From the NCBI GenBank assembly GCA_002794735.1, contig NBAZ01000037.1:45392-109391 (forward strand): a stretch of 64,000 bases of DNA. Reading direction: 5' to 3'. The first letter of the stretch is position 1. Every line of letters begins with the position of its first letter. The notes beneath the pieces are model-generated. The model saw only the letters and a program-made list of their open reading frames with translations. It had not been told where the DNA came from and did not search any database. Position numbers and translations under genes: made by a program. Positions 37,957-59,720 of this stretch are shown here, in pieces. The DNA comes from Pyrrhoderma lamaoense (taxonomy: Eukaryota > Basidiomycota > Agaricomycetes > Hymenochaetales > Hymenochaetaceae).

Positions 37957-40459
37957 ATGGATCCCAGTACTAGCTATGCTCGAGAGGGTTCTATATCCCT
38001 AGACGAAGCAGAGCTTATCTCAGGTACCTCTACGCCAATTAATAAGGGTATCAACAACCAGCTCGGGTACAAAAACACACTATGTGGGATAGATGAGGAA
38101 TCGCCAGGGCTAATGGCAGCTTCAAAAGCCAATAATGACATCCTTGATAAGTTTCTCAAGTATGATCTGACTCAATCTACCTATACAAAAACGATAGATC
38201 AGTTTCTTAACTCCTTGATGAAAGTCGTCAGGGGCGAACCAGGACAGCCAGTGCGCCCGTATGGACGACTTCCTCGAGATAGACACCTTATGGAAATAGT
38301 GCAGGAAGAAGAGGTACTGAGATATCGACGAGAATATTGCAAACCAGTTCAAAAAGAGGGAGATAGGTACTCTCCATTCTGCTTCCTCGCAAACACCATT
38401 CTCGAGAAAATATCGGGACCCGATTCTCCATCCATCTGTTTCGTCAGGAATGACCCTCACGTACTCGCCTGTGATGATCATCCTAGTGGGAGGAAGCCAG
38501 ATCTCGTGTATGTGAGGTCTGATAACTGTGCTGTCAGGGATGGGAAGTGGAAAAGCCATTGTTTAGATGGGCCTAACTTGAGGGGCGAGCTTTGGAAATG
38601 GACAGATGTATTGGGTGTTGGCGAAGTTAAAATCACCTCCAAAGGATCAATCGTACTTGAAGAGGACATTCCCCGTCCTTCCACGTCACTGGACTTGCCG
38701 TTTAACCATTCAGGACCGGTGACGAGGGGGATAAAAAAGAAGTTTGAGGAAGCAATGTCAACAACAAATAAACGGCAACGAACAAGATCGGGTGCAAGCA
38801 GCAGCGGCTTTTCGCCCTTGCAGTATTACGAGCTGCCCGATGGCCCAACGCGGCGGAGGAATCCCAAGCTGCGAGAGGATCTTGTTTATCAGAGCGCGCG
38901 ATACGTGAGCGATCACATGACGATGGATGTCACCCGTCGGCACGTGCTGAATCTGCTGATCAGCGACGGCTTTCTCTGGCTTGCATACTACGACCACCAG
39001 GGCGTGATCTACTCTCCCCCGCTGAACTTTGTGGATGATCTGTATCGACTTGCATATGTACTGAAGGTTCTCAACGACTTCGAGGGCGGGTATCTAGGAC
39101 ATTTTGGACAATTCGAGACTGTCGAGTCGACTTGTCTCATTGGATCGAGAACTGGGGAGAGAGACGAGCTAGGGTGCAGTAAAACTGTGAATGTTCTTCG
39201 GAATATTGGGCGAGGATATCCAATAGACTTGTCGTTTGTTACAGGAAAGAGGATATTTGAAGGGCATAATCGGATATTCTTTGGTGAATCGACACAGATG
39301 GTGATGGTTGGGACGAAGATCGAGGATGGAATTATTGTTCCAATGACTGTTTCGGATTTGGATAGGACTGATGCTTGTGAGGACTCTTTTATGTGGAAGC
39401 ATGTCCTCAAGTGGAGCTATCCTAGACCTAGCAGGATATCGGAGCCGGAATTGATTAAAGCAGCCAAAAGAGTTCTGGAGAGACATGATAACAACCCTGA
39501 TCCGTCTGGAAAGGCGCTCACTGTGAAGATCTCGAACTCACTACCAGATGTTTTGAATGGATATGACATCGATGAGAGGGAAAAGAACTTCCGTGCTTTT
39601 CTTGGGGTAGAGTACGAAGAGCAGAGAATACTCCGGTTCGCTATGCTGGAGTATCTCGAGCCGATTCATAGTCTCCCTGATCTTACACAATTTAAAGGAG
39701 CCGTTCGACAAATAGCTTTAGGTACGTTTCTCTCACACAAGTATCTCTATATTGATTAACATACTAACGTACTCGTCAGCCATACATTATCTAGCATCAA
39801 GCGAAGAAGGGATCAAACATCGGGATATCAATGTGAACAATCTCATGTTTCGTCGCCTCAGTGATGGTCAGATTCAAGGAGTACTCTGTGACTGGGACCA
39901 GGCATCGACATATGAGACCGAAAAGTCTAAAGATCATACAGGGATGCGTAATGGGACAAGGACATTCCTATCTATTGACATGCATAAAAACCCGCCTCCT
40001 GTCCATATTGAACGATTTGACTTTGAGTCACTGTTGTATGTGATGTACTGGATAAGTAAAAACCATTCTGGAGGCAAACCTTTCTCTGAGAGTGAGAAAC
40101 AAAAGGTCGCTAATGGCGAGTGGAAGTTCTGGAACGTAGAAGAGGATGATCCATTAAATGCAATGAAAAGATACTTCCTGAACAGAAATATATCTTTATG
40201 CAATAGTCCTGAATCTTTTACACCTTTTTTTATGCCTTTAGTCTCTTCTTGGCTGGATCCATTGCGCAGACAATTTCGAGAAGGATACAATCTTCGTGAT
40301 GCGTATGAAGACCCAATCGAATCTCCATTGCTTGCTAGCACGACTAATGCGGAATCAAATCAGGGCTCCGCCTTAGAAACTATTCCATCTAGGTTTGATA
40401 ACGCAACTCTGGGAGGAAAAGTTTGTTTTCAAAAAATTTGGGCCATACTCGAGAAATAG
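37957..40459 (+). CDS. FunK1 (fungal-type) protein kinase, full-length copy 1
   Basis: Two exons (37957-39721 and 39780-40459) give 814 residues, in frame throughout. The N-terminal half has the FunK1-type beta-rich region with DDHPSGRKPDLVYVR, WTDVLGVGEVK (near 38610) and LAYYDHQGVIYSPPLNFVDD (near 39000). The kinase half has FMWKHVLKWSYPRPSRISEP (near 39395), the catalytic loop GIKHRDINVNNLMFRR (near 39815) with the Asp and Asn, and GVLCDWDQAS in the place of DFG. ERFDFESLLYVMYWI is a further family mark, and the end is FQKIWAILEK. The family is expanded in mushrooms and its role is largely unknown. This is the only copy in the window with the N-terminal half intact, and so the best candidate for the parent of the array. 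A segment at about 38760-39020 is visibly richer in G+C than its flanks. Confidence 0.9.
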
Positions 40460-40842
40460 CGTATACCCTTATCCTAACATCCTACATTTTTGCATTTTTT
40501 ATTGAAGGCGACTGTCTAATTTTACTACGCCGTTGTAACCTTGTGACACATTATTCATATAATAATTTGTAGTACATGTTTTCAGTTTTACACTTTCTCT
40601 TATATTGCTCAGAAAGTTGTATTAATAGTGTTTCATATAGAGTATTACAGTGTAGTACATAACACAATACACATTAGTAACGCGGTATGTGTGTGATCAC
40701 ATGACGGTGGATATTGGCATGTGTTGTTTTCCCTCATGACTTTCATACTACCTTAAGAGCAATAGGATCTTGGAGCGGAGGGTCATCAGAGCGGCGAAAA
40801 GAGTCCTTGATAGTCATAGTTGAGCCATTGATCCATCTGGAG
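40460..40842 (+). repeat. A-type spacer with decayed FunK1 N-terminal remnant
   Basis: The sequence after copy 1 (gaaggcgactgtctaatttt at about 40505, then a cacttt/gttcag stretch) recurs after copies 5, 7 and 9. It runs into a remnant of the N-terminal coding region with GATCACATGA at 40695. This spacer is shorter than the other A-type spacers. Confidence 0.6.
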
Positions 40843-41738
40843 AGATGCTCACTGTAATGATCTCAAATTCACTACCAGATGTTTTGAATGGATATGATTT
40901 CTCTAAGAAGGAGAAGAAATTCTGTACTTTTCTTGGAGTGGGCTACTACGAGCAGAGGGTACTTCTGTTCACTATGCTTGGGTATCTCGAACCCATACAG
41001 AGCCTCCCTGATCTTACACAATTCAAAGAAGCTATTCTGCATATTGCACTAGGTATGTTATTAATACACAAGCATCTCTTAACTGGTTAATATAGTAACA
41101 TGTTGTTAGCCACACATTACCTAGCATCGAGAGAAGAAGGGATTAAACATCGGGATATCAATGTTAACAATAACATGTTTCGTCGCCTCAGTGATGGTCA
41201 GATCCAAGGAGTACTCTGTGACTGGGACCAGGCATCGACATATGAGACCGAAAGGTCAAATGATCATACAGGGACGCGTAATGGGACAAGGGCATTACTG
41301 TCTATTGACATACACGACACCCCTCCTCTTGTCTATTATGAACAGTGACTTTGAATCATTGTTATATGTGATGTACTGGATAAGTATGAATTACTCAGGA
41401 GGCAAGTTCTTGCGTGAGAAAAAGGATTACAAGGATTCTTCTGATGTATTGAAGTCCTGGAACGTAGGAAAGGACGTACCGTTATCTGAAATGAAAATAC
41501 AACTCCTGAACAAAGTAAAACCTCTTTACGATAGTCCCCAGCTCTTCAAACCTTTTTGGTGCCATTGCGCAAGCTATTCCGAAATGGATACTTTTTTCGC
41601 AACGTGTATAGAGAATCAATCAGACCTTCACTATATAGAAATACGGGTATTTCAGGGTTTAGTCCATCCAATTTTGATGATGCGGCACTGAGAGGAAATG
41701 TTTGTTTCCAGAATATTCGGACCATACTCCAGGATTAA
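40843..41738 (+). pseudogene. FunK1 copy 2, degenerate
   Basis: Homologous to copy 1 from MLTVMISNSLPDVLNGYD onward, with intron at about 41056-41110 and catalytic loop GIKHRDINVNNNMFRR (near 41145), DWDQAS kept. The head is truncated and carries a stop at about 40821 before this point. Near 41335 two bases are missing against copy 1. Around 41550 about 30 bases are lost before LRKLFRNGYFF-like sequence. It ends FQNIRTILQD, the C-type tail shared with copies 8 and 10. Unlike other copies, it needs more than one-base repairs and is probably a true pseudogene. Confidence 0.7.
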
Positions 41739-42487
41739 GGCTTTATAATGATAGATCCTTTTGTTTAGCATTCGCTCGTCAGTCACAATACTTCCACAAA
41801 GAGAACCTCTTCTTTCCTTTTTGCCTTTATGATTCTGTGATTCATATATTTAATTGTAACTCATTTTCTTAGTTAGATGCTTTTTATTATTATCGTGCAG
41901 CGACGTATGATATGCAACACAACATCAAATCCATACTCTCTGAGGTGGACAAGAGCAAACTAGGGATTTCCTAATTGAACTAATGACGAGTATGACATAC
42001 ACTAGATGTGCTGTTTGCACCTCTTCCATCCCCAGAACGAGGGTGTAAATAGATCCGAGGAGTACTTCCTACACAGAATGTAAAGTGACCAAGTTCCTGA
42101 TATGTGGCTGGTAAGGGGGTTTTACTAATACCCGAAAAGAAGATTTGGGAATGATCACATGATGGGTTATGACCCGTCGGCTCGCGATGAATTCCACTCA
42201 TCCGCGACGACCATCAAAGTACTATATCTTTTTGGATAACCTATATTGACCTGCTTACCTATTGAAGGATCTTAGCGAAATATACTACTCAGTGCGAGAG
42301 ATTTAGGCGCATCTCACGATCGAAGATTGTCGGATTGACTTGTCTCATCGTGCTAGGCCTTAAGAAGGGAGACAAGTCGACTGTGGATGTGCTAAGAATA
42401 AATCGATATACTTGAAATCTGTAGCTAGGAAAAGGGCGAACTGAAGTACCTAGTCGTATACTTCATGGTAAATCGGCATAGATAGTT
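41739..42487 (+). repeat. C-type spacer with decayed FunK1 N-terminal remnant
   Basis: The first part (cattcgctcgtcagtcacaa at about 41769) recurs after copies 8 and 10. The second part, with GATCACATGA at 42153 and ggctcgcgatgaattcc, recurs before copy 9. The latter is a decayed version of the N-terminal coding region of copy 1. The spacer leads into copy 3. Confidence 0.65.
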
Positions 42488-43615
42488 ATGATTGGCAAGA
42501 AGATCGAGAATAGTATTGATGTTCCGATGGCTACATCAGACTTGAAAGAAGATTCTATCTACGAAGAATCGTTCAGGTGGAAGCACTCCCTCAAGTGGAG
42601 CTACCCTAAGACTGGTAGGATCTCTGAGTGGGAGATGATCATAGCAGCCAAAAGAGTCCTTAGAAGACATGATAATGACCCCGATCCAATTGGGAAGGTG
42701 CTCACCGTAAATATCTCGGATTCACTACCAGAGGCTCTGAATGGATACGATATAGATGACTGGGAAACTAATGTACATGCATTTCTTGGCGCAGAGTGCG
42801 GAGCGAAGAGGGTACTTCGGTTCACTATGCTTGAGTTTCTAGAGCCGATATATAGCCTTCCTGACCTTGAGCAGTTTAAGGAAGGTATCCGACACATTAC
42901 ACTGGGTAGGGTCATTTCACATATATCTGGAATAACCGTCATAGTGACGTATAATAAGCCATACATTATCTAGCCTCAAGTGAGGAAGGGATCATGCATC
43001 GGGATATCAGTGTGAACAATCTCAGATTCAAGGCGTACTCTGCGATTGGGACCAGTCATCAACTTATGAGACTGAGAAGTCTGAGGACCATAATGATACG
43101 CGTAACGGAACTAGGGCATTCCTGTCTATTGATGTGCACAGGGAATATCCACCTGTTCATCTTGAACGATTCGACTATGAATCGTTATTTTATGTGATGT
43201 ACTGGATGAGTATGAACTTCTCAGAAGGAAAATTCTTGCGTGAAAAGGAAAAGAATGGGGAAGTTCCTGAAGAGTGGAAAACTGGAATATTGAAAGCGAC
43301 AAACGGCTTATTGAGAAGAAGGTGGCTTTCTTGAATGCTCAGAAACCTCTGTGTTATAGTCCCGGACTCTTTACACCTTTTTTTCTGCCTATTGTCGAAC
43401 TTTGGTTGGATCCATTACTTGAACTATTTCGAGATGGGTACACCCTTCGCCGTGTGAAATGTTGCCCAACCCGCCCTCAGCGCTCTTTGTATTCCACAGC
43501 TGTCGCGGAACTTAATTTCAAATCTGTTCCTGAATCTGGTCCGACCACATTTGATAATGCATCATTAGGAGGAATAGTTTGTTTTGAACAAATATGGGCC
43601 ATACTCGAGACATGA
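42488..43615 (+). pseudogene. FunK1 copy 3, internal 25-base deletion and frame break
   Basis: The head is of the type shared with copy 9 (LKEDSIYEESFRWKHSLKWS, DIDDWETNVHAFLGAECGAK). Exon 1 runs from 42488 to 42905, and exon 2 starts at about 42959. At 43020 a 25-base deletion removes the MFRRLSDGQ region after the catalytic loop MHRDISVNNL and shifts the frame. A second break near 43281 is a single missing base. The rest continues as DWDQSS, ERFDYESLFYVMYWM and a B-type tail ending FEQIWAILET at 43615. The deletion makes a normal kinase product unlikely. Confidence 0.7.
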
Positions 43616-44401
43616 AGTCCTCCTTTGATATGAACCTCGCCCTTCGACATTTGAACTATGTTATCTTACTCTACCGCTCTCGTTTGGGACTTCTGGTTTA
43701 TTTGATTGTAGTATATACCCCCGCTCAAGCACAATTCCTTATATCCGATAACAATTTTGTATTCATATTGCTTTCAAAATGACTACTATCTGGCATGCAT
43801 GCCCGTATAATCAGAGTCTATTTGGCACGGACGGTGTGTAAGAGCGAGCCTGCAAAGGTAGTCAGAAACCTTAAGCTGATGCATAGTACAAATGACAATG
43901 GATTATGCTTAGCACCTAACTAAACTCAATAATTTGTTCTGGCTAAGCAACGGGAAGTGTTATATTTCCATCCACCTACATCTAGAGTATTATTTACCAT
44001 TACATGTATTATCTCACGGTTATTAGACAAGAGACAAGAGACAAGAGACAAGAGACAAGAGACAAGAGACAAGAGACAAGAGTTCACCATGTGCAAGCGA
44101 TCACATGATAGATGATATGGCTCGTTGACGTATCTATTCTCTTCATTTACAATGGTCACGTATTCGACTTTGTGGATGATCTGGATTAAAGCAGACGTCG
44201 ACCGAGAAACTCGCACTTCAATAACGAGGATCTCATCCACGTACACAATCGAATATCATCAAATTAACTTATCTCATCAAAGCAAGTTCAAGGAGAGGTC
44301 GGCGACAACTCAAGAAAACTATTAGTATACTTAGGAATATCCGCTTCCCCTGGCATATGTGCCTTTTGAGAAGTTGGATAAAGGGTATAACTGCATAACA
44401 C
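43616..44401 (+). repeat. B-type spacer with 7-base minisatellite
   Basis: It shares its start (agtcc..ttgatatgaacctc) and most of its length with the spacer after copy 6. It contains GATCACATGA at 44099 and a run of about eight acaagag heptamers at about 44025-44082. The spacer after copy 6 has only about three, interrupted. It leads into copy 4. Confidence 0.65.
44025..44082. repeat. Heptamer minisatellite (acaagag)n
   Basis: About eight perfect head-to-tail copies of a seven-base unit without spacers, so not a CRISPR array. The matching place in the sister spacer (near 50192-50221) has about three copies, so the tract expanded or contracted after the spacer was duplicated. Confidence 0.8.
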
Positions 44402-45578
44402 TTGTCGAATAGACACAGGAAAGTGATGATTGAAAGAATGGAGATGGAAAACGGGACTATTGTTCCAGTGACTATACCGGAGCTGAAAATGGAAGATATA
44501 TATAAAGATGCATTCAGGTTGAAGCATGTCCTCAAGTGGAGCTATCTTAGACCTAGTAGGATCTCGGAGCCAGAGATGATAAAAGCAGCTAAAAGAGTTC
44601 TGGAGAGATATGATAACAACCCTGATCCGTCTGGGAAGATGCTCACTGTCAAGATCTCGAAAACGCTACCAGAGGTGCTGAATGGATATGATATTGATGA
44701 GAAGGAAAAGAACTTCCGTGCTTTTCTTGGAGTAGGATACGAAGAACAGAGGGGAATTCGGTTCGCTATGCTTGAGTATCTCGAGCCGATTCATAGTCTC
44801 TCTGATCTTACACAATTCAAAGATTCCATTCGGCATATTGCATTAGGTACGGGGTTCTTGATTACACCTTAATTCTCCAGTATTCTTACATATGATCAGC
44901 CATTAATTACTTGTCGTCAAGTGAAGAAAGGATTAAACATCGGGATATCAACACAAATAATCTCATGTTTCGCCGTCTTTCTGGCAATCAGATCCAAGGT
45001 GTACTCTGCGATTGGGACCAATCATCGAGATACGAGACAGAGAAATCTAATGACCATCCAGGAACGCGAAATGGAACAAGAGCGTTCATATCCTTCGACT
45101 TGCACAAAGATCCACCTCCTGTTCATATTGAACGGTTTGACTACGAGTCACTATTTTATGTAATGTTTTGGATGAGTATGAACTACTCAAGAGGCAAGTT
45201 CTTGGACGAGAAGGAGAAACATTCTACCACGAAAAAGTGGAGTTCTTGGAACATCGAAGATGACTGGGATATAGCTGATAAAAAATACCGCCTCTTGTCA
45301 GAAATACTTTGTGATCACCTCGAATTCTTTACTCCTTTCTTTCAGCCTCTAGTTATTTCTTGGCTGGATCCGTTGCGAACTCTACTTAATAGGGGATACT
45401 ATCTTCGTAGTGAATATCTAGAATCTGTGTCACGGGCCCGGTATTCTGGGGTTGGCTGCACGACCATTGCAGAAACGAACTTGAATCCTCCCCAGAAACT
45501 GAACTTTCCAGATTCAATAATTTAACATTGGGGGGACAAGTTTGCTTTGAAAAGATATGGTCTATACTCGAAACATAA
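44402..45578 (+). CDS. FunK1 kinase copy 4 (kinase half only, one frame break)
   Basis: Exon 1 44402-44846 and exon 2 44900-45578 total 1124 bases, one short of 375 codons. The single missing base is near 45487, after AETNLN. The head has MEMENGTIVPVTIPELKMED and FRLKHVLKWSY, the loop is RIKHRDINTNNLMFRR and the DFG site is CDWDQSS. The middle (FISFDLHKDPPPVHIERFDY, KKWSSWNIEDDWDIADKKYR) is almost the same as in copy 7. The tail differs (RTLLNRGYYLRSEYLES) and ends FEKIWSILET. N-terminal half absent. It is either a short kinase or a gene broken by a sequence error. Confidence 0.7.
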
Positions 45579-46356
45579 AACCCTCTTATATACCCGATCA
45601 TCATTATAATTTTACTAAGTTTACTCACAAATAAGACATTCTAATGCTCCCTCACAATTTAATGTTTAATTTTCACTTTTCCGCCTTAACGTCGAGGCTC
45701 ATAGTCTTTTTTTGTGATTAATAAACATTCATGGATTCTGTTTCTTATATATGACAAATTAGTTGCATTGATATTAACTTCGAATAGGAGTGATGAGAAA
45801 TATGATACAACTGTCCGCTCAGAATCTACTGGATTTATTCGTCGTGTAAGAACAAACCCAAAAAGAAGGACGAACATACTCAGACTAACACAAAGTATAG
45901 TTTGACTGGTGATTATTCAAGGATATTTCAACTACAATCAGCACATAGTCTTTTTACATAGCTTGATAATAACTGGCAGCTTCTTTGGCTAATAACCTCT
46001 GACTACCTAAAGCTGAAGCATTATATATCATAATATAACGGGTTTATCTGTCGGAGTTCTTGATATGTGAGCGATCACATGACGATTGATATTACTACCG
46101 GCACGTGTTTGAATTCCTCATGAATTTAACGGTACACAATGTAACACATACATTGGCCTTCTCTAGCTTACACACTACCACTATTAGAGTGCGGTATATC
46201 TCCCACTGTATCTTGTAGGTGAATTCCAACAGAGCTATCATCAACAGAAGGCTCTGAACGGCTTCAACCGTAAGGATTTCGACTACTTTACACAATCGAA
46301 GTAGCAAGTTGACACATATTTTCAAGTCAGGGTCATAAAGAGATTAGTGACGATAT
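45579..46356 (+). repeat. Spacer between FunK1 copies 4 and 5
   Basis: This spacer is the least like the others. It keeps the GATCACATGA anchor at 46073 inside a short N-terminal remnant. No gene is recognised. Two small frames at 45686-45905 on opposite strands are mutual shadows. Confidence 0.5.
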
Positions 46357-47563
46357 TTGACATACTCGAAACCTATAAATGGGGAGAGGATACCTGGATG
46401 GTCTACTTGTATCTACTTTGATAGTTCGACACAGATAACGATGGTTGGAATCAAGTTAGTGAATGGGATCGTTGCTCCAATGACTATATCAGATCTGAAA
46501 AGGGAAGCTATATATGTATTCAAATGGAGCTATCCAAAGAGTAGTAGAATATCGGAGCGGGAGATGATTATCAAGGTTAGGAAAGTTCTAGAGAGACATG
46601 ACAACAGCCCTGATCCGTCCGGGAAATCGCTCACAATGAAGATCTCGAACTCACTACCAGATGTATTGAGTGGATATGATTTTGATGAGAGAGATAGTCT
46701 TTTCCGAGAGTTTCTTGGAGTAGGAATCGAGGAGGAGAGGATACTGCGGTTTACTATTCAAGAATGTCTTGAGCCGATTCATACCCTTCCTGATCTTGTA
46801 AAATTCAAGGAAGCTACTCGTCATATTGCATTAGGTATATTGATCACTTTGTAACATAATTTATTATCATATTGACGTACAAGTAGCCATTCATTATCTA
46901 GCGTCGAACAAAGAAGGGATCAGACATCGGGATATCAATGTAAACAATCTCATGTTCCGTCGTCTCATTGATGGTCAGATCCAAGGTGTACTTTGTGATT
47001 GGGACCAGGCATCTACATATGATACCGAGAAGTCTCCCAATCATCCAAGGAGGCGTAATGGGACAATGGCATTCCTATCTATTGACATGCACGAAACCCC
47101 ACCTCCTGTCCATATTGAACGATTTGACTTTGAGTCATTGTTGTATGTGATGTACTGGATAAGTGTAAACTACTCGGAAGGCAAGCTTTTACCTGAGAAA
47201 GAGAAACAAACTAATTCTGACGAGTGGAAGTTCCGGAACCTTGAACAAGACGATCCATTGATTGCGATGAAACGACATTTCCTGAGCAGAACTAGACCTT
47301 CAAGCAATAGTCCCGAACTAATTACTCCTTCTTTTATGCCTTTAGTCAGTTTATGGCTTAATCCATTGCGCAGACAATTTCGAGATAGATACGTTCTTCG
47401 TGGTATGCATGAAGACCCGGCCGAACCTTTATCGCTTGCTAGCACGGCTAATGCAGAATCAAATCAGGACTCTGTCATAGAGACTATTCCACCCAGGTTT
47501 GATAACGCAACACTAGGAGGAAGAGTTTGTTTTCAAAAAATTTGGGCTATACTCGAGAAATAG
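46357..47563 (+). CDS. FunK1 kinase copy 5, open
   Basis: Exons 46357-46834 and 46887-47563 give 384 residues without a break. The head has STQITMVGIKLVNGIVAPMT and a short in-frame deletion where other copies have WKHVLKWSY (here YVFKWSYPKSS). The catalytic loop is GIRHRDINVNNLMFRR, then GVLCDWDQAS, ERFDFESLLYVMYWI and an A-type tail ending FQKIWAILEK, nearly as in copy 1. Only the kinase half is coded; the region for the N-terminal half lies decayed upstream. It could be expressed as a short kinase. Confidence 0.75.
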
Positions 47564-48610
47564 CGTATACCCTTATCCTAGCATTCTACACTTTTACATT
47601 ATTTTCGAAGGCGACTGTCTAATTTTACTACGCCGTTGTATACTTGTGACATATATTTTAACGAGTGATTTGTGGTACATGTTTTCAGTTTTACACTTTT
47701 TTTTTTATTGTTCAGGTGTTGTACTAATAGTGTTTCATATCGAGTGTAGTAAATAACACAATACATATGTATACTTGGACCCTACGGATTGCAGTCGACT
47801 TGTAGGTATGGATCTGGAAAGCATATCGATTGTCCGATCGCAATACAAAATCATTAGAAGTATAGTCTGTATTCTATCTAATCTTATAAATTAGTATTGA
47901 AAGTGTGGATGAAATTTGTGGAAAAAAGAGGATGACTGCGTTGATATGAGATATAATAGAACCGAATGCCTTCAATACATAACGCTGCGCAGCACAAGCA
48001 AAACACAAGAGAATGGTAAGTTGGGAATATTGATATTTTTGTCATGATTAGATACACCACTGAATAGGCGGTAGTAGCACAGATTCGTTTCTCATGAAAT
48101 GACAAGAGTGACTCAGGGTTTTACCAAGCAGGAAGAGGGAAAAATAAATATACAATAACACACCCTCCGGGACTAGTTGAAGGGGTAAAATATTCGAGGG
48201 GGCTACTTTTACCAAAGAACAAGAGATTGTGAAGATCTACGTCCTGATATGTGGCTGGTAAAATAAATTCTCTCTCCACTTGAAATAGAAGTTCATGACT
48301 AAGACGTAATGCGTTATGTGGATCACATGACGGTGGATATCGGCGTGTGTTGTTTTCCCTCATGGCTTTCATACTACGACCATCAATGTGGTATATTCGA
48401 CGTCATTGAACTTTTTAGATGGTCCGCATCAGTCTATGCATCTACTGAAGGATAAAAGCAACTTCAACAGCGTGGAGATTATCTACTTTCACGATTGTAG
48501 ATTGTCGAATTAATTTGTCTCATCGATCCAGGTTTTGAGAAGGGGAGACAAGACGACTGTGAATGTAAAAAGAATTATCTGATAGACTTAACAACTGCAA
48601 CTACGAAAAG
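47564..48610 (+). repeat. A-type spacer with decayed FunK1 N-terminal remnant
   Basis: Homologous over nearly its whole length to the spacers after copies 7 and 9 (shared tgcagtcgac, gcatatcgattg, gggactag, gtcttgagaa-like blocks). GATCACATGA is at 48321, followed by the remnant ctttcatactacgaccatca that corresponds to the YYDHQG region of copy 1. It leads into copy 6. Confidence 0.7.
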
Positions 48611-49768
48611 GTGGTATCTGGAATGAAGAACAATAATAGGACTGTTGCTCCGACGACCACATCAGATCTGAGAAGAGATGATATTTACGAAGATATAATT
48701 AGATGGAAACATGTCCTCAAGTGGAGCTACCCTAAGAGTAATAGGATCTCGGAGCGGGAGATAATTATCCAAGCTAGAAAAGTTCTGGGGAGACATGACA
48801 AAGACCCTGACCCATCTGGGAAGGCGCTCACTGTGAAGATCTCGAACTCACTACCAGATGTGTTGAATGGATATGACATTGATGAAAGGAAGAAGATCCT
48901 CCGTGCATTTCTTGGGGTAGGGTACGAAGAGCGGAGGATACTTCGGTTCGCTATATTCGAGTATCTCGAGCCAATTCATAGCCTTCCTGATCTTACACAA
49001 TTCAAAGGATCCGTTCGACATATTGCTTTAGGTACGTTTCTCTCACACAAACATCTCTTAACTGGTTAATAAAATAACATATTGTTAGCCATACATTATC
49101 TAGCATCAAGCGAAGAAGGGATCAAACATCGGGATATCAATGTGAACAATCTCATGTTTCGTCGCCTCAGTGATGGTCAGATCCAAGGAGTACTCTGTGA
49201 CTGGGACCAGGCATCGACATATGAGACCGAAAGGTCAATTGATCATACAGGGATGCGTAATGGGACAAGGGCATTCCTATCTATTGACATGCACGAAAAT
49301 CCACCCCCTGTTCATCTTGAACGATTCGACTTTGAGTCACTATTTTATGTGTTGTACTGGATAAGTATGAACTACTCGAAAGGGAAGTTTCTTCCTGAAA
49401 AAGACAAGCATCTGATAACGAAAAAATGGGCTTATTGGAACGTTGAAGATGACGAGGATTTATCCGGAAAGAAAGTGGCTTTCTTGCATAAGGAAACACG
49501 TTTGTGCGATAGTCCAGAGCTTTTTACGCCTTTCTTTATGCCTATTGTCGAGCTTTGGTTGGATCCATTACTTGATCAATTTCGAGATGGGTACATCCTT
49601 CGTCGCGTGAAATGTTATCCAACCCGCCCTCAGCGTTCTTTGTATACCACAACTGTTCCAGGATCAAACTCAGACTCTATCCTTGAATCTGGTCAGACCA
49701 CATTTGATAACGCATCATTGGGAGGAAAAGTTTGTTTTGAACAGATATGGGCCATACTCGAGACATGA
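48611..49768 (+). CDS. FunK1 kinase copy 6, open
   Basis: Exons 48611-49031 and 49089-49768 give 366 residues without a break. The head has NRTVAPTTTSDLRRDDIYED and IRWKHVLKWSYPKSNRISER, the loop is GIKHRDINVNNLMFRR and the DFG site is CDWDQAS. The middle (KKWAYWNVEDDEDLSGKKVA) is shared with copy 9. The tail is B-type (WLDPLLDQFRDGYILRRVKC) and ends FEQIWAILET, as in copy 3. It keeps catalytic Asp and Asn but lacks the N-terminal half. Confidence 0.78.
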
Positions 49769-50546
49769 AGTCCGCATTTGATATGAACCTCATCCTTCGA
49801 CATTTGCGCGACACTGACACAGTCATAACTTTTTTATCTGCCTCTACCGCTCTTCTGGTTTATTTGATTGTAATATATATTCTCGCTTTGGCACAATTCC
49901 TTATACCGATGTAAAAAAAACTGTATTTATAATGCTATAAGACGATAAATGTATAGTATGCATGCCCGTATAATCAGAGTCTGTCTGGCACGGACGGTGT
50001 GTAGGAATGAGCCTGCAAAGGTAGTCAGAAACCTTAAGCTGATGCATAGTACAAATGACATGGATTATGCTTAGCACCTAACTTAACTCAATAATTTGTT
50101 CTGGCTAAGCAACGGGAAGTGTTATATTTCCATTCACTAACATCTAGAGCATTATAATCTATCACATGCATGTACTATCTCACAGTAATTAGACAAGAGA
50201 CAAGAGACTTGCGAGACAAGAGTTCTCCGTGTGCAAGCGATCACATGATAGATGATATGGCTCGTTGACGTATCTATTCTCTTCATTGAAAATGGTCACG
50301 GATTCACCACTAACCGACTTTGTGGATGATCTGGATCAAAGCACACATCAACTGAAACCCTCATACCCACGAGGATCTCATCCACTTGCACAATCGAAAA
50401 ATATCAAGTTGACTTATCTCATCAAGGCAAGTTCAAGGAGAGGTCGGCGACAACACAAGAAAACTGACGATATATTTAGGAGTACCCGATGCTTCTGAGT
50501 TCTGTGCCTTTTGAGAAGTTTGCTAAAGGGTCTAATTGCATAACAC
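49769..50546 (+). repeat. B-type spacer
   Basis: Near-copy of the spacer at 43616-44401, including the block gcacggacggtgtgta and GATCACATGA at 50239. The acaagag tract is short and interrupted here (about 50192-50221). It leads into copy 7, whose head matches that of copy 4. Confidence 0.7.
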
Positions 50547-51724
50547 TTGTCGAATAGACGCAGGAAAGTGATGATTGAAAGATTGGAGATGGAAAACGGG
50601 GCTATTGTTCCAGTGACTACACGAGATCTGAAAATGGAAGATACATCTATATATAAAGATGCGTTCAGGTGGAAGCATGTCCTCAAGTGGAGCTATCCTA
50701 GACTTAGTAGGATCTCGGAGCCAGAGATGATAAAAGCAGCTAAAAGAGTTCTGGAGAGATATGATTATAACCCTGATCCATTTGGGAAAATGCTCAGTGT
50801 AAAGATCTCGAACTCACTACCAGAGGTATTGAATGGATATGATATTAATGAAAAGGAGAAGAACTTCCGTGAGTTTCTTGGGGTAGGGTACGAAGAACAG
50901 AGGGGAATTCGGTTCACTATGCTTGAGTATCTCGAGCCGACTCACAGCCTCCCTGATCTTACACAATTCAAAGAAGCTGTTCGGCATATTACTTTAGGTA
51001 CGTTCTCAATGGATAAGTATATCTTTACTGGTTAAAATAATAACGTTTATTAGCCATACATTATCTAGCATCGAGCGAAGAAGGGATTAAACATCGGGAT
51101 ATCAATGTAAACAATCTCATGTTCCGCCGTCTTGCTGATGGTCAGATTCAAGGAGTACTCTGCGATTGGGATCAAGCATTGAGATACGATACAGAGAAGT
51201 CTAATGACCATCCAAAAACGCGAAATGGAACAAGAGCGTTCATATCCTTCGACTTGCACAAAGATCCACCTCCTGTTCATATTGAACGGTTTGACTACGA
51301 GTCACTATTTTATGTAATGTTTTGGATGAGTATGAACTACTCAAGAGGCAAGTTCTTGGACGAGAAGGAGAAACATTCTACCACGAAAAAGTGGAGTTCT
51401 TGGAACATCGAAGATGACTGGGATATAGCTGATAAAAAATACCGCCTCTTGTCAGAAATACTCTGTGATCACCTTGAATTTTTTACTCCTTTCTTTCGGC
51501 CCCTAGTTATTTCTTGGCTGGATCCGTTGCGCAGACAATTTCGAGATGGGTACTATCTTCGTAATGTGCATGAAGACCCAGCCGAACCTTTATCGCTTGC
51601 TAGTACGGCTAATGCAGATTTAAATCCGGACTCCGCCTTAGAAACCATCTCACCCAGGTTTGATAACGCAACGCTGGGAGGAAAAGTTTATTTCCAAGAA
51701 ATTTGGGCTATACTCGAGAAATAG
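50547..51724 (+). CDS. FunK1 kinase copy 7, open
   Basis: Exons 50547-50997 and 51054-51724 give 373 residues without a break. Head and middle match copy 4 (LEMENGAIVPVTTRDLKMED, FISFDLHKDPPPVHIERFDY, KKWSSWNIEDDWDIADKKYR). From WLDPLR onward it switches to an A-type tail (RQFRDGYYLRNVHEDPAEPL) like copies 5 and 9, and ends FQEIWAILEK. The loop is GIKHRDINVNNLMFRR, followed by CDWDQAL. Confidence 0.78.
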
Positions 51725-52793
51725 ACTATAATCTTGTGACGGATCCTGATATTCTACACTTTTACATTTTCTTTTGAAGGCAACTATCTAATTTTACTAA
51801 GCCGTTGTAATTTTGCGACATATATTTTATCGAGTAATTTGTGATACATGTTTTCAGCTTTACACTTTCTCTTTCATTGTTCAGAAAGTTGTACTAATAG
51901 TGTTTCATATAGAGCGGAGTATATAACATAATATACATGTATACTTGGACCCTAAGATTGCAGTCGACATGTATGTATGTATGTATGTATGTATGTATGT
52001 ATGTATGTATGTATGTATCTGGCAAGCATATCGATTGACCGTTCGCAATACAAAATCGATAGAAGTTTAGTCTATATTCTATCTTATTTTATAAGTTGGT
52101 ATTGAGAGTGGAGATCAAAAATGTGGAAAAAAGATGTCTGTGAGCCGATATGAGATATAATAGAATTGAGTATCTTCAATACATTTCGGTGCGTCTCACA
52201 AACAAGAGAATGGTGAATTGGGATTTGAGAATATTATTTTTTTGTCATGATCAGCTACATGGCTAAAGAGGCGTTAGTAGCACAGATCTGTTTCTCATTA
52301 AATCACAAGAGCGGCTCAGGGTTTTAACAACCAGAAGGAGGGAGTACAATAACACCACACCCGGGACTAGCTGAGGGGAAAGAGATTCGAGGAGACTACT
52401 TGTACAAAAGAACAAGAGATTGTGAAGATCTATATCCCGATATGTGGTTGGGAAAAGAAGCCCATGACTAAGACGTAATACGTTATGTGGATCACATGAC
52501 GGTGAATATGATATTGGCGTGTAGTGTTTTCCCTCATGGCTACGACCATCAAGGCAGTGTATTCGACGTCATTGAACTTTTTAGATGGTCCGTATCAGTC
52601 TATACACCTACTGAAGGATCTGAGCAACTTCAACAGCGTGTACATCAGCTATATTCACGATCGACGTTGTCGAATTGATTTTTCTCATTGATCCAGGTTT
52701 TGAGAAGGGGGGACAATACGACTGTGAATGTACAAAGAATTATCTGATAAACTTAAACTTAATAACTGCAACTACGAAAAGGTGGTATCTTGA
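51725..52793 (+). repeat. A-type spacer with GTAT microsatellite
   Basis: Homologous to the spacers after copies 5 and 9. At 51971-52018 there is a run of about twelve gtat units where the sister spacers have one or two. GATCACATGA is at 52490. It leads into copy 8. Confidence 0.7.
51971..52018. repeat. (gtat)n microsatellite
   Basis: About twelve perfect tetranucleotide copies. The two homologous spacers carry only one or two units at this place, so the run grew after duplication. Confidence 0.85.
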
Positions 52794-53910
52794 ATGAAGA
52801 ACGATAATAGGATTATTGTTCCGATGGCCACATCAAATCTGAAAAGAGATGATATTTACGAAAATATATTGTCCTGGAAACATGTCCTCAAGTGGAGCTA
52901 TCCTAAGAGTATTGGGGTCTCGGAGCGGGAGATAATTACTCAAGCTAGAAAAGTTCTCGAGAGACATGATTATAACCCTGACCCATCTGGGAAGGCGCTC
53001 ACTGTGAAGATCTCGAACTCACTACCAGATGTTTGGTTTGGTTATGATATATATGAGAGGGACAAGAAGCTCGGAGCATTTCTTGGAGTAGGATACGAAG
53101 AGCAGAGGATACTTCGGTTCGCTATGCTGGAGTATCTCGAGCCGATTCATGGCCTTCCTGATCTTGAGCAATTCAAGGAAGCTATTCGTCATATTGCACT
53201 AGGTATGATGATTCCACCTGTACCTCAATTTACCATTACGTTGACGTATACCCAGCAATTCATTATCTAGCATCGAGCGAGGAAAGAATCAAACATCGGG
53301 ATATCAATGTTAACAATCTCATGTTTCGCCGTCTTGCTGATGGTCAGATCCAAGGCGTACTCTGTGACTGGGACCAGGCATCGACATATGAGACCGAAAA
53401 GTTTAAAGATCATACAGGGACGCGTAATGGAACAAGGGCGTTTCTGTCTATTGACATGCACAATAATCCGCCTCCTGTTCATCTTGAACGATTTGACTAT
53501 GAGTCGTTATTCTATGTGATGTACTGGATAAGTATGAACTTCTCGAAGGAAAATTCTTGCCTGAGAAAGAAAAGAATGGCGATGTTCCTGATGCATGGAA
53601 GTTCTGGAACGTAAGAAAGGACGACCTGATATCTGCAATGAAAATACAACTCCTGCACAGTTCTAAACCTCTATACGATAGTCCCCAACTCTTCACGCCT
53701 TTTTTCATGCCTCTAGTTGATGATTGGCTGGAGCCATTGCGCAATCTATTTCGAGATGGATACTATTTTCGTAATTTGTATAGAGGTTCAGCCAGATCTT
53801 CGCGGCGTAGAAATACGAGTATTGCTTGGCCTGGTCCATCCAATTTTGATGATGCGACACTAGGAAGAAATGTTTGTCTCCAGAATATTTGGACCATACT
53901 CCAGGATTAA
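52794..53910 (+). CDS. FunK1 kinase copy 8 (one frame break)
   Basis: Exons 52794-53202 and 53256-53910 total 1064 bases, one short of 355 codons. Against copy 10, which is almost identical here, a single G is missing near 53549 (ctcgaagg against ctcggaagg). The head has TSNLKRDDIYENILSWKHVL. The loop is RIKHRDINVNNLMFRR, followed by CDWDQAS. The C-type tail (WLEPLRNLFRDGYYFRNLYR) ends LQNIWTILQD. N-terminal half absent. Confidence 0.72.
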
Positions 53911-55655
53911 GGTCTGTGCTTTATACTGATGGCTCCTCTTGTTTAGCATTCGCTCGTCAGTCACAATGCTTCTTCAAAGAGAACCTCTTCAGTCTTCTTA
54001 CCTTTTTGCCTTTATGATTCTGTGATTCATCTATCTAGTTGTAACTTATGTTCTTAGGTAGATGCTTTTCCTCATGTCGAGATAGTAGTTGTCATAACGC
54101 ATACGTATACCTAGAGTCCACTACTTATAGTCTGTATGCAGAAATGGTCCCTCTAAGAGGGGTAAATATACTGCAACTGGTACAAAGTATCCAATGACTA
54201 CTATTCGTACAACAAAGACCATAAAAATATAGTCAGTACCCCATACAATTCAGTAAACTGGGAAGCTTGATTTTGGTGAGGGCTTCTGTCTACTTGTATA
54301 TCTAAAATCGATCGATATCCCAGGTAGAAGCCCGTAATGGGATAGCTATTTACATAGAAACGGATATGCTTATCAGGGACACTGCGTGAGATGTAAAATT
54401 TCCACGGCTGAGAGTGAAGAGAAAAGGTGCGTACAAACTTATGAATTCACGAGTTAAACTAAAATGGAGTTTTTACAAGAAATGCTGTAGGAAACCTTCT
54501 TTCAGGAACAATGATGAAAGTACCATCTATCTTGGACTGCAATAGAAGGAGATGAAGGGATATTAGATCAGTTTTGAAATGGGATTCATCGCCATAAAAC
54601 AGGATTTATTCTTAGAGTCTTTTGGGATGCTGCTCATGTACTAGGTACGTAGCCGTAGTATCTATGGCTGGCTTGCATTGGTTTTTATATGTTGAACAGG
54701 ACCTTAGTTTGCCGACTGAAAATAACACCGGACGTTCTTTACACTATATTTGCTCTCTGCTTGTGTGGGGAATACTTGTTTTACTTTACCGAGATTTTAA
54801 CTTTATATTTAACAAAGAAAATCGCATTTCTACTCTATACTGCTTTTATCTTACAAAAGAAGCGAAACTCTCAAGTAATGAGAGTGAATTAAGTAAATCT
54901 CTAGGATTTAGCTTATTTAACATGATGAGATGTGTTCAGTAACCTCGTCCGGTCAAATCGAAGATGAATTCACCGGAAAAAAGCGAGGTAGATTCAACTA
55001 TATTGTTATAAATCTATACAGAAACGTACGATATGCAACCCAATATCAAATCCACAAACTCTGGAATAGACAAGAGCAAACTAGGGAGATCTTAGTACAA
55101 AGGATGACGAATTTGTCATATATCAGATATGCTGTTTGCACCTCGTCCGGCCCTAGAACGAGGGGAGAAACAAGAGATTCGAGGAATACCAATATTACGG
55201 AGAAAACAAGAGACTGTAAAAAGGACCGAGTTCCTCTTATGTGGCCGGTAAGGGAGTTTTACTACTATCTAATAGTGTGGCTTGTGATTGATCACATGAC
55301 GATAGGAGATTATTACCCGCCGGCTCGCGATGAATTCCCCTCATCCGCGACGACCATCAAACTAGTGTATCCTACACTATCGAGCTTTTTGAATACCCTA
55401 TATCGATTTGCTTACCTCTGCTTACCTTGAAGAAGGATCTAAGCGAAATAGACTACCCAGTGCGAGAGATTTAGGCACATCTCACGATCGAAGATTGTTG
55501 GGCTGGCTTGTCTCATCGTGCAAGGCCTTAAGAAGGGAGAAAAGACGACTGCGAACGTGCTAAGAATAATTCGATATACTTTCTATCTGTTGCTAGGAAA
55601 GGGGTGAACCAAAGTACTTGATCGTATACTTCATGGTAAATCGGCATAGATAGTT
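53911..55655 (+). repeat. Long C-type spacer with FunK1 N-terminal remnant
   Basis: The first 297 bases are nearly identical to 58927-59222, after copy 10. From about 54208 to 55000 the sequence has no match elsewhere in the window and no recognised gene (one frame of 106 codons at 54622-54942). From about 55020 it resembles the spacer before copy 3, with GATCACATGA at 55290 and a partly open N-terminal remnant (54930-55430). It leads into copy 9. Confidence 0.6.
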
Positions 55656-56806
55656 ATGAATGGAAAGGAGACCGAGAATAGTTTCGATGTTCCAGTGACT
55701 ACATCCGACTTGAAAGAAGATTCTATCTACGAAAATTCGTTCAGGTGGAATCATTCCCTCAAGTGGAGCTATCCTAGGGTTGGTAGGATCTCTGAATGGG
55801 AGATGATCGTAGCAGCCAAAAGAGTCCTTAGAAGACATGATAATGACCCCGATCCATTTGGGAAGGTGCTCACCGTAAAGATCTCGGATTCACTACCAGA
55901 GGCTCTGAATGGATACGATATAGATGACTGGGAAACTAATGTACATGCATTTCTTGGCGCAGAGTGCGGAGCGAAGAGGGTACTTCGGTTCACTATGCTT
56001 GAGTATCTCGAGCCAATTCAAAGCCTTCCTGATCTTACACAATTCAAAGGAGCCGTTCGACATATTGCTTTAGGTATGTTTTTCCTAAGCAAGTATATCT
56101 ATATTGATTGTGATTATAACGTATTCTCAGCCATACATTATCTAGCATCAAGCGAAGAAGGGATCAAGCATCGGGATATTAATGTGAACAATCTCATGTT
56201 TCGTCGCCTCGATGATGGTCAGATCCAAGGAGTACTCTGTGACTGGGACCAGGCATCGACATATGAGACCGAAAGGTCAAATGATCATACAGGGACGCGT
56301 TATGGAACAAGGGCATTCCTATCTATTGACATGCACAAAACTCCGCCTCTGTTCATCTTGAACGATTCGACTTTGAGTCACTATTCTATGTGATGTACTG
56401 GATAAGTATGAACTACTCGAAAGGGAAGTTTCTTCCTGAAAAAGAAAGGCAGCTGATAACGAAAAAATGGGCTTATTGGAATGTTGAAGACGACGAAGAT
56501 TTATCCGGAAAGAAAGTGGCTTTCTTGCATAAGAAAATACGTTTGTGTGACAGTCCAGAACTCTTTACTCCTTTCTTTCGGCCCCTAGTTATTTCTTGGC
56601 TGGATCCATTGCGCAGACAATTTCGAGATGGATACTATCTTCGTAATGTGCATGAAGACCAAACCGAACCTTTATTACTTGCTAGCACGGCTAATGCAGA
56701 CTTAAATCAGGACTCCGCCTTAGAAACTATTCCATCCAGGTTTGATAATGCAACACTGGGAGGAAAAGTTTGTTTCCAAAAAATTTGGGCTATACTCGAG
56801 AAATAG
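55656..56806 (+). CDS. FunK1 kinase copy 9, mosaic (one frame break)
   Basis: Exons 55656-56073 and 56131-56806 total 1094 bases, one short of 365 codons. The missing base is one C near 56347 (cgcctctgtt where copies 6 and 8 read cctcctgtt). The head matches copy 3 (DIDDWETNVHAFLGAECGAK), the middle matches copy 6 (KKWAYWNVEDDEDLSGKKVA) and the end matches copy 7 (RQFRDGYYLRNVHEDQTEPL, then FQKIWAILEK). The loop is GIKHRDINVNNLMFRR, followed by CDWDQAS. The three-part mosaic points to gene conversion or unequal exchange within the coding sequence. Confidence 0.75.
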
Positions 56807-57790
56807 ACTATACTCTTGTAACGGATCCTAGCATTCTACATTTTTACTTTATTTTCGAAAGCAACTCTCTAATATTACTATGTCGTTGTAACCTTGGGAC
56901 ACATATTTTTATCGACTCACTTGTAGTACATGTTTTCAGTTTTACACTTTCTCTTATGTTGTTCAGAATAGTCTCATATCGAGTGTAGCAAATAATACAA
57001 TACGCATATATATTTGGACCCTACGGATTGCAGTCTAAATGAAGGTATGGATCTGGCAAGCATATCGATTGACCGTTCGCAATACAAAAATGATAGAAAC
57101 ATAACACGGATCCCATCTAATCTTATAAGTTGGTATTGAGAGTATAGAGTGAAAAAAAGAGTTAACTGTGTGCCGATATGAGTTATTATAGAATTGAATA
57201 CTTTCAACACATTTCATTGCGTCTCACAAAACACAAGAGAATTGTTTTTTTGGGAATATTGATCTTTTTGCTAGTAGCACAAAGCTAGCACAATTGTTTC
57301 TCATGAAATGATAGGAGCGGCTTAGGGTTTTACCAAGCAGGAAGAGGGCAAAATCAATATACAATAACGCCTCATCCGGGACTAGTCGAGGGGTAAAAGA
57401 TTCGAGGAGACTACTTTTACCGAAGAACAAGAGATTGTGAAGATCTACATCCTGATATGTGGCCGGTAAAATAGAATTTCTACCACTTGGAATAGAGTTC
57501 ATGACTAAGACGTGATGCGTTATGTGGATCACATGACGTATGTGTTGTTTAAAATGTTTTCCCTCATGGCTTTCATACTACGACCATCCAGGTAGTATAT
57601 TCGACGTCATTCAACCCTTTAGATGGTCCATATCAATCCCTGCATCTACTGAGGGATTTGGGAAACTTTAACAGCGTGGACACTATCTACTTACACGATC
57701 GAAGATTGTTAAGTTGATTTTTCTCATCGATCCAGGTTTTGAGAAAGGAGACAAGACATCTGTGGATGTGCAAAGGAATATCTGATATAC
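56807..57790 (+). repeat. A-type spacer with decayed FunK1 N-terminal remnant
   Basis: Third full A-type spacer, homologous to 47564-48610 and 51725-52793. GATCACATGA is at 57527, followed by the ctttcatactacgaccatcc remnant. It leads into copy 10. Confidence 0.7.
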
Positions 57791-58926
57791 TTGTCAATTT
57801 TAGCTGGAATGAAGACCGAAAATGAGACTGTTGCTCCGACGACCACATCAAATCTGAAAAGAGATGATATTTACGAAAATATATTGTCCTGGAAATATGT
57901 CCTCAAGTGGAGCTATCCTAAGAGTATTAGGATCTCGGAGCGGGAGATAATTATCCAAGCTAGAAAAGTTCTCGAGAGACATGATTATGACCCTGATCCA
58001 TCTGGGACGGCGCTCACTGTAAAGATTTCGAATTCACTTCCAGATGTTTTGAACGGATATGATATATATGAGAGGAACAAGAAACTCGGATCATTTCTTG
58101 GAATAGGAACCAAGGAGAATAGGGTACTTCGGTTCACTATGCTTGAGTATCTCGAGCCGATTCATAGTCTCCCTGATCTTGGGCAGTTCAAAGAATCTGT
58201 TCGTCATATTGCACTAGGTATGATGATTCCATCTGTACCTCAATTTACCATTTCATTGACGTATACCTAGCAATTCATTATCTAGCGTCGAGCAAAGAAG
58301 GGATCAAGCATCGGGATATCAATGTGAACAATCTCATGTTTCGTCGCCTCGGTGATGATCAGATCCAAGGAGTACTCTGTGACTGGGACCAGGCATCGAC
58401 ATATGAGACCGAAAAGTTTAAAGATCATACAGGGACGCGTAATGGAACAAGGGCGTTTCTGTCTATTGACATGCACAATAATCCGCCTCCTGTTCATCTT
58501 GAACGATTTGACTATGAGTCGTTATTCTATGTGATGTACTGGATAAGTATGAACTTCTCGGAAGGAAAATTCTTGCCTGAGAAAGAAAAGAATGGCGATG
58601 TTCCTGATGCATGGAAGTTCTGGAACGTAAGAAAGGACGACCTGATATCTGCAATGAAAATACAACTCCTGCACAGTTCTAAACCTCTATACGATAGTCC
58701 CCAACTCTTCACGCCTTTTTTCTTGCCTCTAGTTGATGATTGGCTGGAGCCATTGCGCAATCTATTTCGAGATGGATACTATTTTCGTAATTTGTATAGA
58801 GGTTCAGCCAGATCTTCGCGGCGTAGAAATACGAGTATTGCTTGGCCTGGTCCATCCAATTTTGATGATGCGACACTAGGAAGAAATGTTTGTCTCCAGA
58901 ATATTTGGACCATACTCCAGGATTAA
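57791..58926 (+). CDS. FunK1 kinase copy 10, open
   Basis: Exons 57791-58217 and 58271-58926 give 360 residues without a break. The head has ETVAPTTTSNLKRDDIYENI and YVLKWSYPKSIRISEREI. The loop is GIKHRDINVNNLMFRR, followed by CDWDQAS and ERFDYESLFYVMYWI. The C-type tail ends LQNIWTILQD. From the DWD region to the end it is nearly base-for-base the same as copy 8. It is the last copy of the array. Confidence 0.78.
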
Positions 58927-59222
58927 GGTCTGTGTTTTATACTGATGGCTCCTCTTGTTTAGCATTCGCTCGTCAGTCACAATGCTTCTTCAAAGAGAAC
59001 CTCTTCAGTCTTCTTACCTTTTTGCCTTTATGATTTGTGATTCATCTATTTAATTGTAACTTATGTTCTTAGGTAGATACTTTCCCTTATATCGAGAAAG
59101 TAGTTGTCATAACGCATACGTATACCTAGAGTCCACTACTTATAGTCTGTATGCAGAAATGGTACCTCTAAGAGGGGTAAATATACTGCAACTGGTACGA
59201 AGTATCCAATGACTACTATTCG
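58927..59222 (+). repeat. Truncated C-type spacer, right end of the FunK1 array
   Basis: Nearly identical to 53911-54207 up to the string gactactattcg. There the match stops abruptly and unrelated LTR-like sequence begins. No decayed N-terminal remnant follows, so this is the physical right edge of the array. Confidence 0.75.
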
Positions 59223-59720
59223 TTGTAGGACCAGCTAAGTGTTTGGCCGGTCGTAGTGCATTTATAAAGCACTTTCTAACTCGCCCGAGAAGTCCATTGC
59301 TACTACTCGGCCGCGCACCTCGTTCATTTCTCTTACTATTTAGCTTCACTTTCTACTCTTACTCGAAGGGTAGGGTTCGTTTATACGACCCCCTCGTTCC
59401 TGATAGCTTAAACCCTTCGTCCAGTGGCATGTAGCCACCTGGACACCATGCTTTCCTTATTATCTACCCTTTATCTCGCGTTTTGCTATATAAGCCTCCA
59501 GACTTGAGGCCGTAGTCAATCAATCAATTCCCAACCAATTCCTAGCTACTCCTCTCGGTCGCTATCTTTCTACACCCCCCCCCCCCGAGTAGCTCTCTAA
59601 TAGTCGCCTGTACTCTTTATCTACTACTGTGCTACTTTATTAGCCTGCCCAGGCGCGCTTGTAACGCCCTGACCGTACTGCAAGGCGTCCGGGTGGACTG
59701 AAATACATACACTTTTAACT
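59223..59720. mobile_element. LTR-like fragment, possible solo LTR
   Basis: The segment begins just after the array edge with tgtaggaccagc. It carries a strong TATA-like signal (gctatataag, about 59487) about 50 bases before a caatcaatcaattcccaacc stretch, and a C run at 59575-59587. Base composition changes sharply from the array. These are features of a retrotransposon LTR promoter region, but I found no second LTR, target-site duplication or coding part, so the class and the right end are uncertain. Confidence 0.3.

Follow-up and report, generated by a model that had tools for sequence, protein, structure and literature searches.

Heads and tails are reassorted inside the genes of a tandem FunK1 kinase array from Pyrrhoderma lamaoense, and the tail, the spacer and the next head travel together

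The DNA analyzed here, referred to as the window, is a stretch of 64,000 nucleotides from the basidiomycete Pyrrhoderma lamaoense (assembly GCA_002794735.1). It is the final 64 kb of contig NBAZ01000037.1, or C37 (positions 45392-109391 of 109391), in a genome of 30.65 Mb and 72 contigs. Ten copies of one group of FunK1 genes, an expanded and poorly understood family of fungal kinases (Pkinase_fungal, PF17667), occupy positions 37957-59223 of the window, head-to-tail and on the + strand throughout. The array, its copy number and its coordinates had been correctly described in a first-pass annotation of the same DNA. Only copy 1 is full-length, and the nine other copies are N-terminally truncated. 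The product of copy 1 has 814 residues and is encoded by 588 codons plus one base, followed by a 58-bp intron and the exon that carries the catalytic loop. The open reading frames of copies 3-10 start at the equivalent of residues 430-450, approximately, of copy 1, and that of copy 2 at about residue 488. All nine spacers contain decayed FunK1 pieces corresponding to about residues 314-450 of copy 1, the matches being weak in part (best E value per spacer 7e-8 to 1e-3). The repeat unit is therefore a gene truncated on its 5' side together with the flank behind it, and what look like spacers are partly gene relics. Table 1 lists the features of the array.

Table 1. Coordinates and classes of the FunK1 array and the features associated with it (positions in the window).
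Feature	Position	Strand	Description
Copy 0	36041..36681	+	FunK1 relic with stops, lies 5' of the array
Copy 1	37957..40459	+	full-length; own head class (epsilon), tail A; exon 37957-39721, intron 39722-39779, exon 39780-40459
Exchange zone 1	39626..39705	+	in copy 1 coordinates; spans residues ~557-583 with the presumed hinge, MLEYLEP (563-569)
Exchange zone 2	40211..40270	+	copy 1 coordinates; residues ~733-752, TPFFMPLV...WLDPLRRQF
Spacer 1	40460..40747	+	class A, internal deletion; an additional gap deletes the copy 2 head
Copy 2	40748..41738	+	headless, stop and frameshifts, tail C
Spacer 2	41739..42487	+	class C, holds a FunK1 N-terminal relic
Copy 3	42488..43615	+	head gamma, tail B; deletion past the HRD loop, broken frame
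Spacer 3	43616..44401	+	class B
Copy 4	44402..45609	+	head beta, tail D; frame breaks close to the end; 3' end approximate
Spacer 4	45610..46356	+	class D (sole member)
Copy 5	46441..47563	+	head delta (sole member), tail A; open, 356 aa from first in-frame ATG
Spacer 5	47564..48610	+	class A
Copy 6	48623..49768	+	head alpha, tail B; open, 362 aa
Spacer 6	49769..50546	+	class B
Copy 7	50571..51724	+	head beta, tail A; open, 365 aa
Spacer 7	51725..52793	+	class A
Copy 8	52794..53910	+	head alpha, tail C; frameshift within tract near-identical to copy 10
Spacer 8	53911..55655	+	class C
Copy 9	55656..56806	+	head gamma, tail A; frameshift
Spacer 9	56807..57790	+	class A
Copy 10	57809..58926	+	head alpha, tail C; open, 354 aa
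Last spacer	58927..59223	+	start of a class C spacer (297 bp), ends at the LTR-like repeat
LTR-like repeat	59224..59965	+	solo-LTR-like (TG...CA), borders the array on its 3' side

The spliced protein of copy 1 scored 71.5 bits against PF17667, above the cut-off of 24.1 bits, and matches of 35.8-61.5 bits were obtained with the exon-2 frames of copies 1, 4 and 6 and with a piece of copy 9. No PF17667 match was found in the first-exon pieces taken alone (copies 1, 5, 6, 7 and 10) or in the last piece of copy 9, and copies 2, 3 and 8 were assigned to FunK1 by DNA identity, not by the profile scan. HRDI..NN, the catalytic loop, is present in the translations of all ten copies, and DWD, the metal-binding motif, is in frame in nine, copy 3 being out of frame before it; we take both to be kinase motifs. 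Exon 2 is open in copies 1, 5, 6, 7 and 10 and broken in copies 2, 3, 4, 8 and 9, and the small frameshifts of copies 4, 8 and 9 could partly be sequencing errors. The spliced proteins predicted for copies 5, 6, 7 and 10 from an in-frame ATG would be 354-365 residues long. A search with the 814-amino acid protein of copy 1 found no relative at E<=0.001 among 5648 candidates. When the genome was searched with PF17667, 107 of 490 candidates were scored and yielded 117 matches; since none of the listed places falls in this array, the family is larger than the scored list.

Identity between segments places the tails in class A (copies 1, 5, 7 and 9, 83-93% identical), class B (copies 3 and 6, 86%) and class C (copies 2, 8 and 10, 82-99.5%). 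Heads of one class are 85-93% identical (alpha, copies 6, 8 and 10, 85-88%; beta, copies 4 and 7, 93%; gamma, copies 3 and 9, 88%) and heads of different classes 61-72%. The heads of copies 1 and 5 each stand alone, the best identity of the latter being 72% (to copy 10), or 79% in a narrower segment, and the head of copy 2 is deleted; this copy was excluded from the head comparisons. Blastn sorted the spacers in the same manner: class A comprises spacers 1 (with its deletion), 5, 7 and 9; class B, spacers 3 and 6; class C, spacers 2 and 8 together with the opening 297 bp of the last one; and class D, spacer 4. The first-pass annotation had recognized the same members of tails A and C and of the three head classes. 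Its tail B stands for copies 3 and 6 and has to be given up for copy 4, whose tail shares 58-59% identity with B and 61-68% with A and is thus no closer to B. The 3' flank of copy 4 shares at most 48% identity with any other flank, and spacer 4 produced a single blastn match of 64 bp (73%, to spacer 1). Because tail, flank, spacer and following head all stand apart, the tail of copy 4 and its spacer are best classified, by sequence, as a fourth class, D.

The spacer class predicts the head that follows it at all seven junctions at which this can be tested: A leads to alpha (3/3), B to beta (2/2) and C to gamma (2/2). Spacer 1, which precedes the deleted head of copy 2, and spacer 4, the only member of its class, are uninformative. 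The distances between tails and between the heads of the next copies showed a correlation of 0.886 (Mantel test, eight junctions, the tail 1/head 2 junction being absent; p=1e-4, 20,000 permutations), whereas the correlation between head and tail within a gene was 0.069 (nine genes, p=0.28) or 0.089 (eight genes, p=0.26). When offsets from -4 to +4 were compared, only +1 was prominent, the runner-up being 0.332 at -2. A column bootstrap (500 draws) gave correlations of 0.70-0.93 across spacers versus -0.03-0.21 inside genes. Heads and tails are reassorted inside the genes, and the tail, the spacer and the next head travel together.

A single tree for head, middle and tail was ruled out by three kinds of tests. 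The pairwise homoplasy index (PHI) was 0.360, compared with 0.518 +- 0.005 under shuffling (2000 shuffles, p<=5e-4). In approximately unbiased (AU) tests on the nine copies other than copy 2, head, middle and tail each rejected the trees of the other two, with a largest p of 0.0031; only by the Shimodaira-Hasegawa test was the head tree still acceptable for the middle segment (p=0.056). A grid search that covered 253 segments placed breaks at alignment columns 480, 720 and 1020, with a gain in the Bayesian information criterion (BIC) of 1182 over one tree, and the breaks at 480 and 1020 remained when the penalty was doubled. Separate trees and breakpoint detection had been suggested as a check by the first-pass annotation, and its claim that exchange took place inside the kinase coding sequence is upheld by the agreement of the linkage, PHI, AU and BIC tests.

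Among 720 ordered triplets examined by the maximum chi-square method, 157 had a chi-square above 25 and 23 were strong, with high identity on both sides of the break. Fifteen of the latter fall in columns 260-535 (12 of these in 400-535), one in 720-880 and seven in 880-1140. Switches of nearest neighbor along the copies also speak for recombination between them. In copy 1 the first of the two zones (Table 1) covers residues 563-580 and the second residues ~735-751. The first contains MLEYLEP, located some 35-40 residues N-terminal to HRD, which is presumably the kinase hinge. Most breaks lie near this presumed hinge and ahead of the C-terminal tail. Their location in the gene body is most simply explained by the gene being the longest conserved stretch, since spacers of different classes hardly align.

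The core between head and tail is common to copies 6/9, 4/7 and 8/10. Because copies 6 and 9 have neither head nor tail in common and copies 4 and 7 have no common tail, the core also moves and is a third module that is exchanged separately. The tail-spacer-head unit proposed in the first-pass annotation is therefore coherent as a block without being the only part that moves. A recent, conversion-like tract of ~660 bp (53357..54019, + strand) is common to copies 8 and 10, which are 99.5% identical there, with two substitutions and one indel. Exact identity between copies extends over 246 bp at most, in copies 4 and 7. These near-identical tracts suggest that conversion took place as well.

Selection was assessed by the ratio of nonsynonymous to synonymous divergence (dN/dS), in comparisons that pool broken and open copies and with p-values that are rough Fisher tests on sites. 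The pooled pairwise dN/dS was 0.59 in the head, 0.30 in the N-lobe, 0.10 in the catalytic loop, 0.18 in the next part, 0.25 in the following one and 0.55 in the tail; no positive or diversifying selection was seen, in that no segment had a pooled pairwise value above 1. Homogenization of the catalytic loop was considered and rejected, as the low synonymous divergence that it would leave was not found (dS 0.60 versus 0.63 in the N-lobe); conservation of the loop is therefore mostly due to purifying selection. The divergence within classes would post-date the truncation, as spacers of the same class share the truncated structure. Within classes, the truncated copies had a dN/dS of 0.49 in heads (three pairs, p=0.002) and 0.34 in tails (two pairs, p=5e-4), and the core of copies 6 and 9 had 0.25 (p=0.001). 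Single pairs gave 0.51 (heads of copies 6 and 10, p=0.03) and 0.44 (tails of copies 5 and 7, p=0.07). Some of the truncated copies were under purifying selection, and others look unconstrained.

The array is a set of tandem FunK1 paralogues, nine of ten without the N-terminal part, and its present arrangement is very probably the result of ectopic recombination among the copies. Misaligned copies would have undergone unequal exchange or segmental duplication, by which the blocks were re-ordered and, since the tail-spacer-head blocks stayed intact, the exchanges would have been resolved within gene bodies. Gene conversion would have overwritten stretches of the gene body, and several truncated copies would have been functional for a time after truncation, others being dead. 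Some observations weigh against parts of this explanation. At the seven breaks examined, the identity of the present-day parents over +-100 columns is 63-72%, and within 60 columns their longest common exact runs measure just 9-23 bp; these runs are short for ordinary homologous exchange, and template switching at microhomology is therefore possible. A single haplotype does not distinguish crossing-over from conversion. The breakpoint triplets are non-independent, and their clustering is not separated from the effect of conservation. When 28 copies from this and other loci were pooled (an alignment that omits T1 on contig C12 and in which the head of Pend2 falls beyond the contig end), 36 of 19,656 triplets were strong: relative to exon 2, 13 lie at -160 to -41, 10 at 280 to 519 and 4 elsewhere, and the remaining 9 of 36, at 0 to 39, define a third break zone at the start of exon 2. 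The dN/dS of the heads of copies 8 and 10 (0.83, p=0.69) and that of the tails of copies 2 and 8 (0.97, p=1, or 1.04 on a longer segment) are not different from 1.

These last values are what would be expected if all truncated copies were dead repeats and the mosaic had no consequence for any protein. Copies 2-10 are all truncated, half of the ten exon-2 frames are broken, and an LTR-like repeat lies at the end of the array. Nevertheless, the pooled within-class divergence of the truncated copies favors synonymous change and four of them retain open spliced frames, which makes this alternative rather unlikely.

Other FunK1 loci of the genome extend the comparison. Relatives of the array copies are found on contigs C41, C51, C16, C19 and C12, and related mosaics are present in the three other clusters examined; the comparison leaves out the FunK1 clusters on C2, C6, C13, C22, C29, C31, C32, C42, C55, C63 and others. 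Two of these relatives, Qa (C41:28083) and Pend1 (C51:49540), match copy 1 over its whole length at the DNA level: the matches start at 37543 and 37573, respectively, continue with 88% identity as far as 38931 and resume at 39123. They combine the head of copy 1 (92-96%) with a tail like those of copies 6 and 3 (85-88% for the pairs listed) and a B-class 3' flank. With copies 1, 3 and 9, they complete all four combinations of heads epsilon and gamma with tails A and B. A cluster of a distant FunK1 group lies at the start of C37 (C37:1-17000; 294-15956) and consists of some 11 short copies whose strands alternate, in convergent pairs, with 39-44% protein identity to copy 1. Its heads, cores or tails are 99-100% identical in varying combinations, and one tree does not fit them (PHI 0.303 versus 0.546; 11 copies, 500 shuffles, p=0.002). 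An exact inverted match of 1288 bp makes the assembly of this cluster less secure than the array's. An ongoing module-shuffling system could be imagined, which would act in two or more distant FunK1 groups, reassorting N-lobe, core and tail at a small number of preferred zones, with exchanges that are in part recent (blocks 99-100% identical) and with the short kinases still in use. We put this forward as a tentative and improbable extension; if true, FunK1 would be a fungal counterpart of clustered recognition genes.

The analogy with immune-gene clusters can be carried further, to arrays that are kept because the shuffling of N-lobe, core and C-terminal modules gives useful new kinases. Modular exchange in two distant FunK1 groups, breaks close to presumed module borders, and the presence of several open chimeras and constrained within-class pairs would fit such a working diversity generator. 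However, the sole listed pair with a dN/dS above 1 (tails of copies 2 and 8) includes a dead copy, no pooled segment exceeds 1, exon 2 is broken in half of the copies and the break positions may merely track DNA conservation. We regard a working generator as distinctly improbable, and the phrase "natural combinatorial generator" used in the first-pass annotation exceeds the data: pooled dN/dS is below 1 everywhere, and some pairs are near 1.

Another possibility is that head-tail pairs are fixed and only the middles are copied between genes. Core sharing is evident in neighbors on C51 (P1/P2, with cores 97-98%, heads 57% and tails 59% identical, and P4/P5), in an inverted FunK1 pair at C19:209500-219000 (97-98% from the N-lobe to the middle, then 70% and 54%, the tails being 54% identical) and in the tract of copies 8 and 10. 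Core-only conversion would keep head-tail pairs, but four head-tail combinations exist, and in the array it is the tail of one copy and the head of the next that are correlated, not the head and tail of the same gene. As the sole process it is very unlikely; it is insufficient for this array and probably acts in addition. Duplication of two-gene blocks, as in the P array of C51 (tails of P1/P3 86% and of P2/P4 83% identical), was also considered and does not account for the arrangement A C B D A B A C A C seen here.

An assembly artefact, in which misjoined reads of near-identical copies produced false chimeras, is very unlikely even in a repeated locus with exact matches of up to 246 bp between copies, at a contig end and with related copies at the ends of C41 and C51. 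False joins are expected within long exact matches and should leave no divergence on either side, whereas at the seven breaks the chimeras are 1.5-16% divergent from both their left and their right relatives and the exact runs of the parents are short. In addition, the window has no N and other contigs carry related mosaics; the misassembly that the first-pass annotation named as a possible objection is thus disfavored.

The tomato Cf-4/9 Hcr9 cluster reportedly combines exchange between paralogues with diverged intergenic regions. If FunK1 clusters evolve by module exchange, single-tree FunK1 phylogenies mislead, and the arrays supply natural head-core-tail chimeras with which the roles of the modules could be mapped. 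The clean split between linkage across spacers and its loss inside genes makes the array a neat test case for concerted evolution. The formation of chimeric genes by exchange between clustered paralogues is already well known (PMC1988830, PMC5103432, PMC6771003), and the FunK1 array is a new instance of it. The Sp185/333 clusters of sea urchins consist of mosaic elements and gene-containing segmental duplications for which conversion, recombination and meiotic mispairing have been proposed (PMC1988830, PMC5103432). The FunK1 array resembles them in the clustering of similar genes and in the mosaic patterns of elements. It differs in that Sp185/333 are animal immune genes with a repertoire that varies by individual, whereas the genes described here encode kinases, are half broken in exon 2 and come from one genome; furthermore, the Sp185/333 duplications have short tandem repeats at their edges, and the passage that describes them reports no pseudogenes (PMC5103432). 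Sequences are also exchanged between paralogues, tandem ones included, in the RPP8 plant resistance genes, for which balancing selection has been proposed (PMC6771003), unlike the purifying selection that is the only kind seen here. In the RCCX/CYP21 tandem modules of man, chimeric genes arise by unequal crossing over or conversion (PMC11542561, PMC3161346); the repeats there are nearly identical and the variants medical, while the array has ten diverged copies. Expansions of FunK1 by lineage-specific duplication in the same family have been described in Paracoccidioides and Coccidioides (PMC3203195) and in the kinomes of Fusarium (PMC6001611), in accounts that, in their accessible parts, cover copy number, motifs and expression and not intragenic exchange. 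No title on exchange inside FunK1 genes was found among the literature matches listed, which do not cover subscription papers and leave its absence unproven.

The array ends exactly at a long terminal repeat (LTR)-like element (59224). Because of this abrupt stop, and since the class C spacer does not resume beyond the repeat, a rearrangement probably truncated the array on its 3' side. Among 310 candidates in the genome, 40 full-length places of the repeat were scored, that at the array end included; four pairs are ~3.2 kb apart, and another copy lies within the B-class 3' flank of a related gene on C41. A C-like FunK1 tail relic is located on the minus strand at 63530-63785, near the contig end. 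Outside the array, Vts1-like and SAM-domain frames at 6670-8719 (+ strand) are probably one gene, and a minus-strand frame at 10184-10927 matches a calpain-type peptidase (Peptidase_C2).

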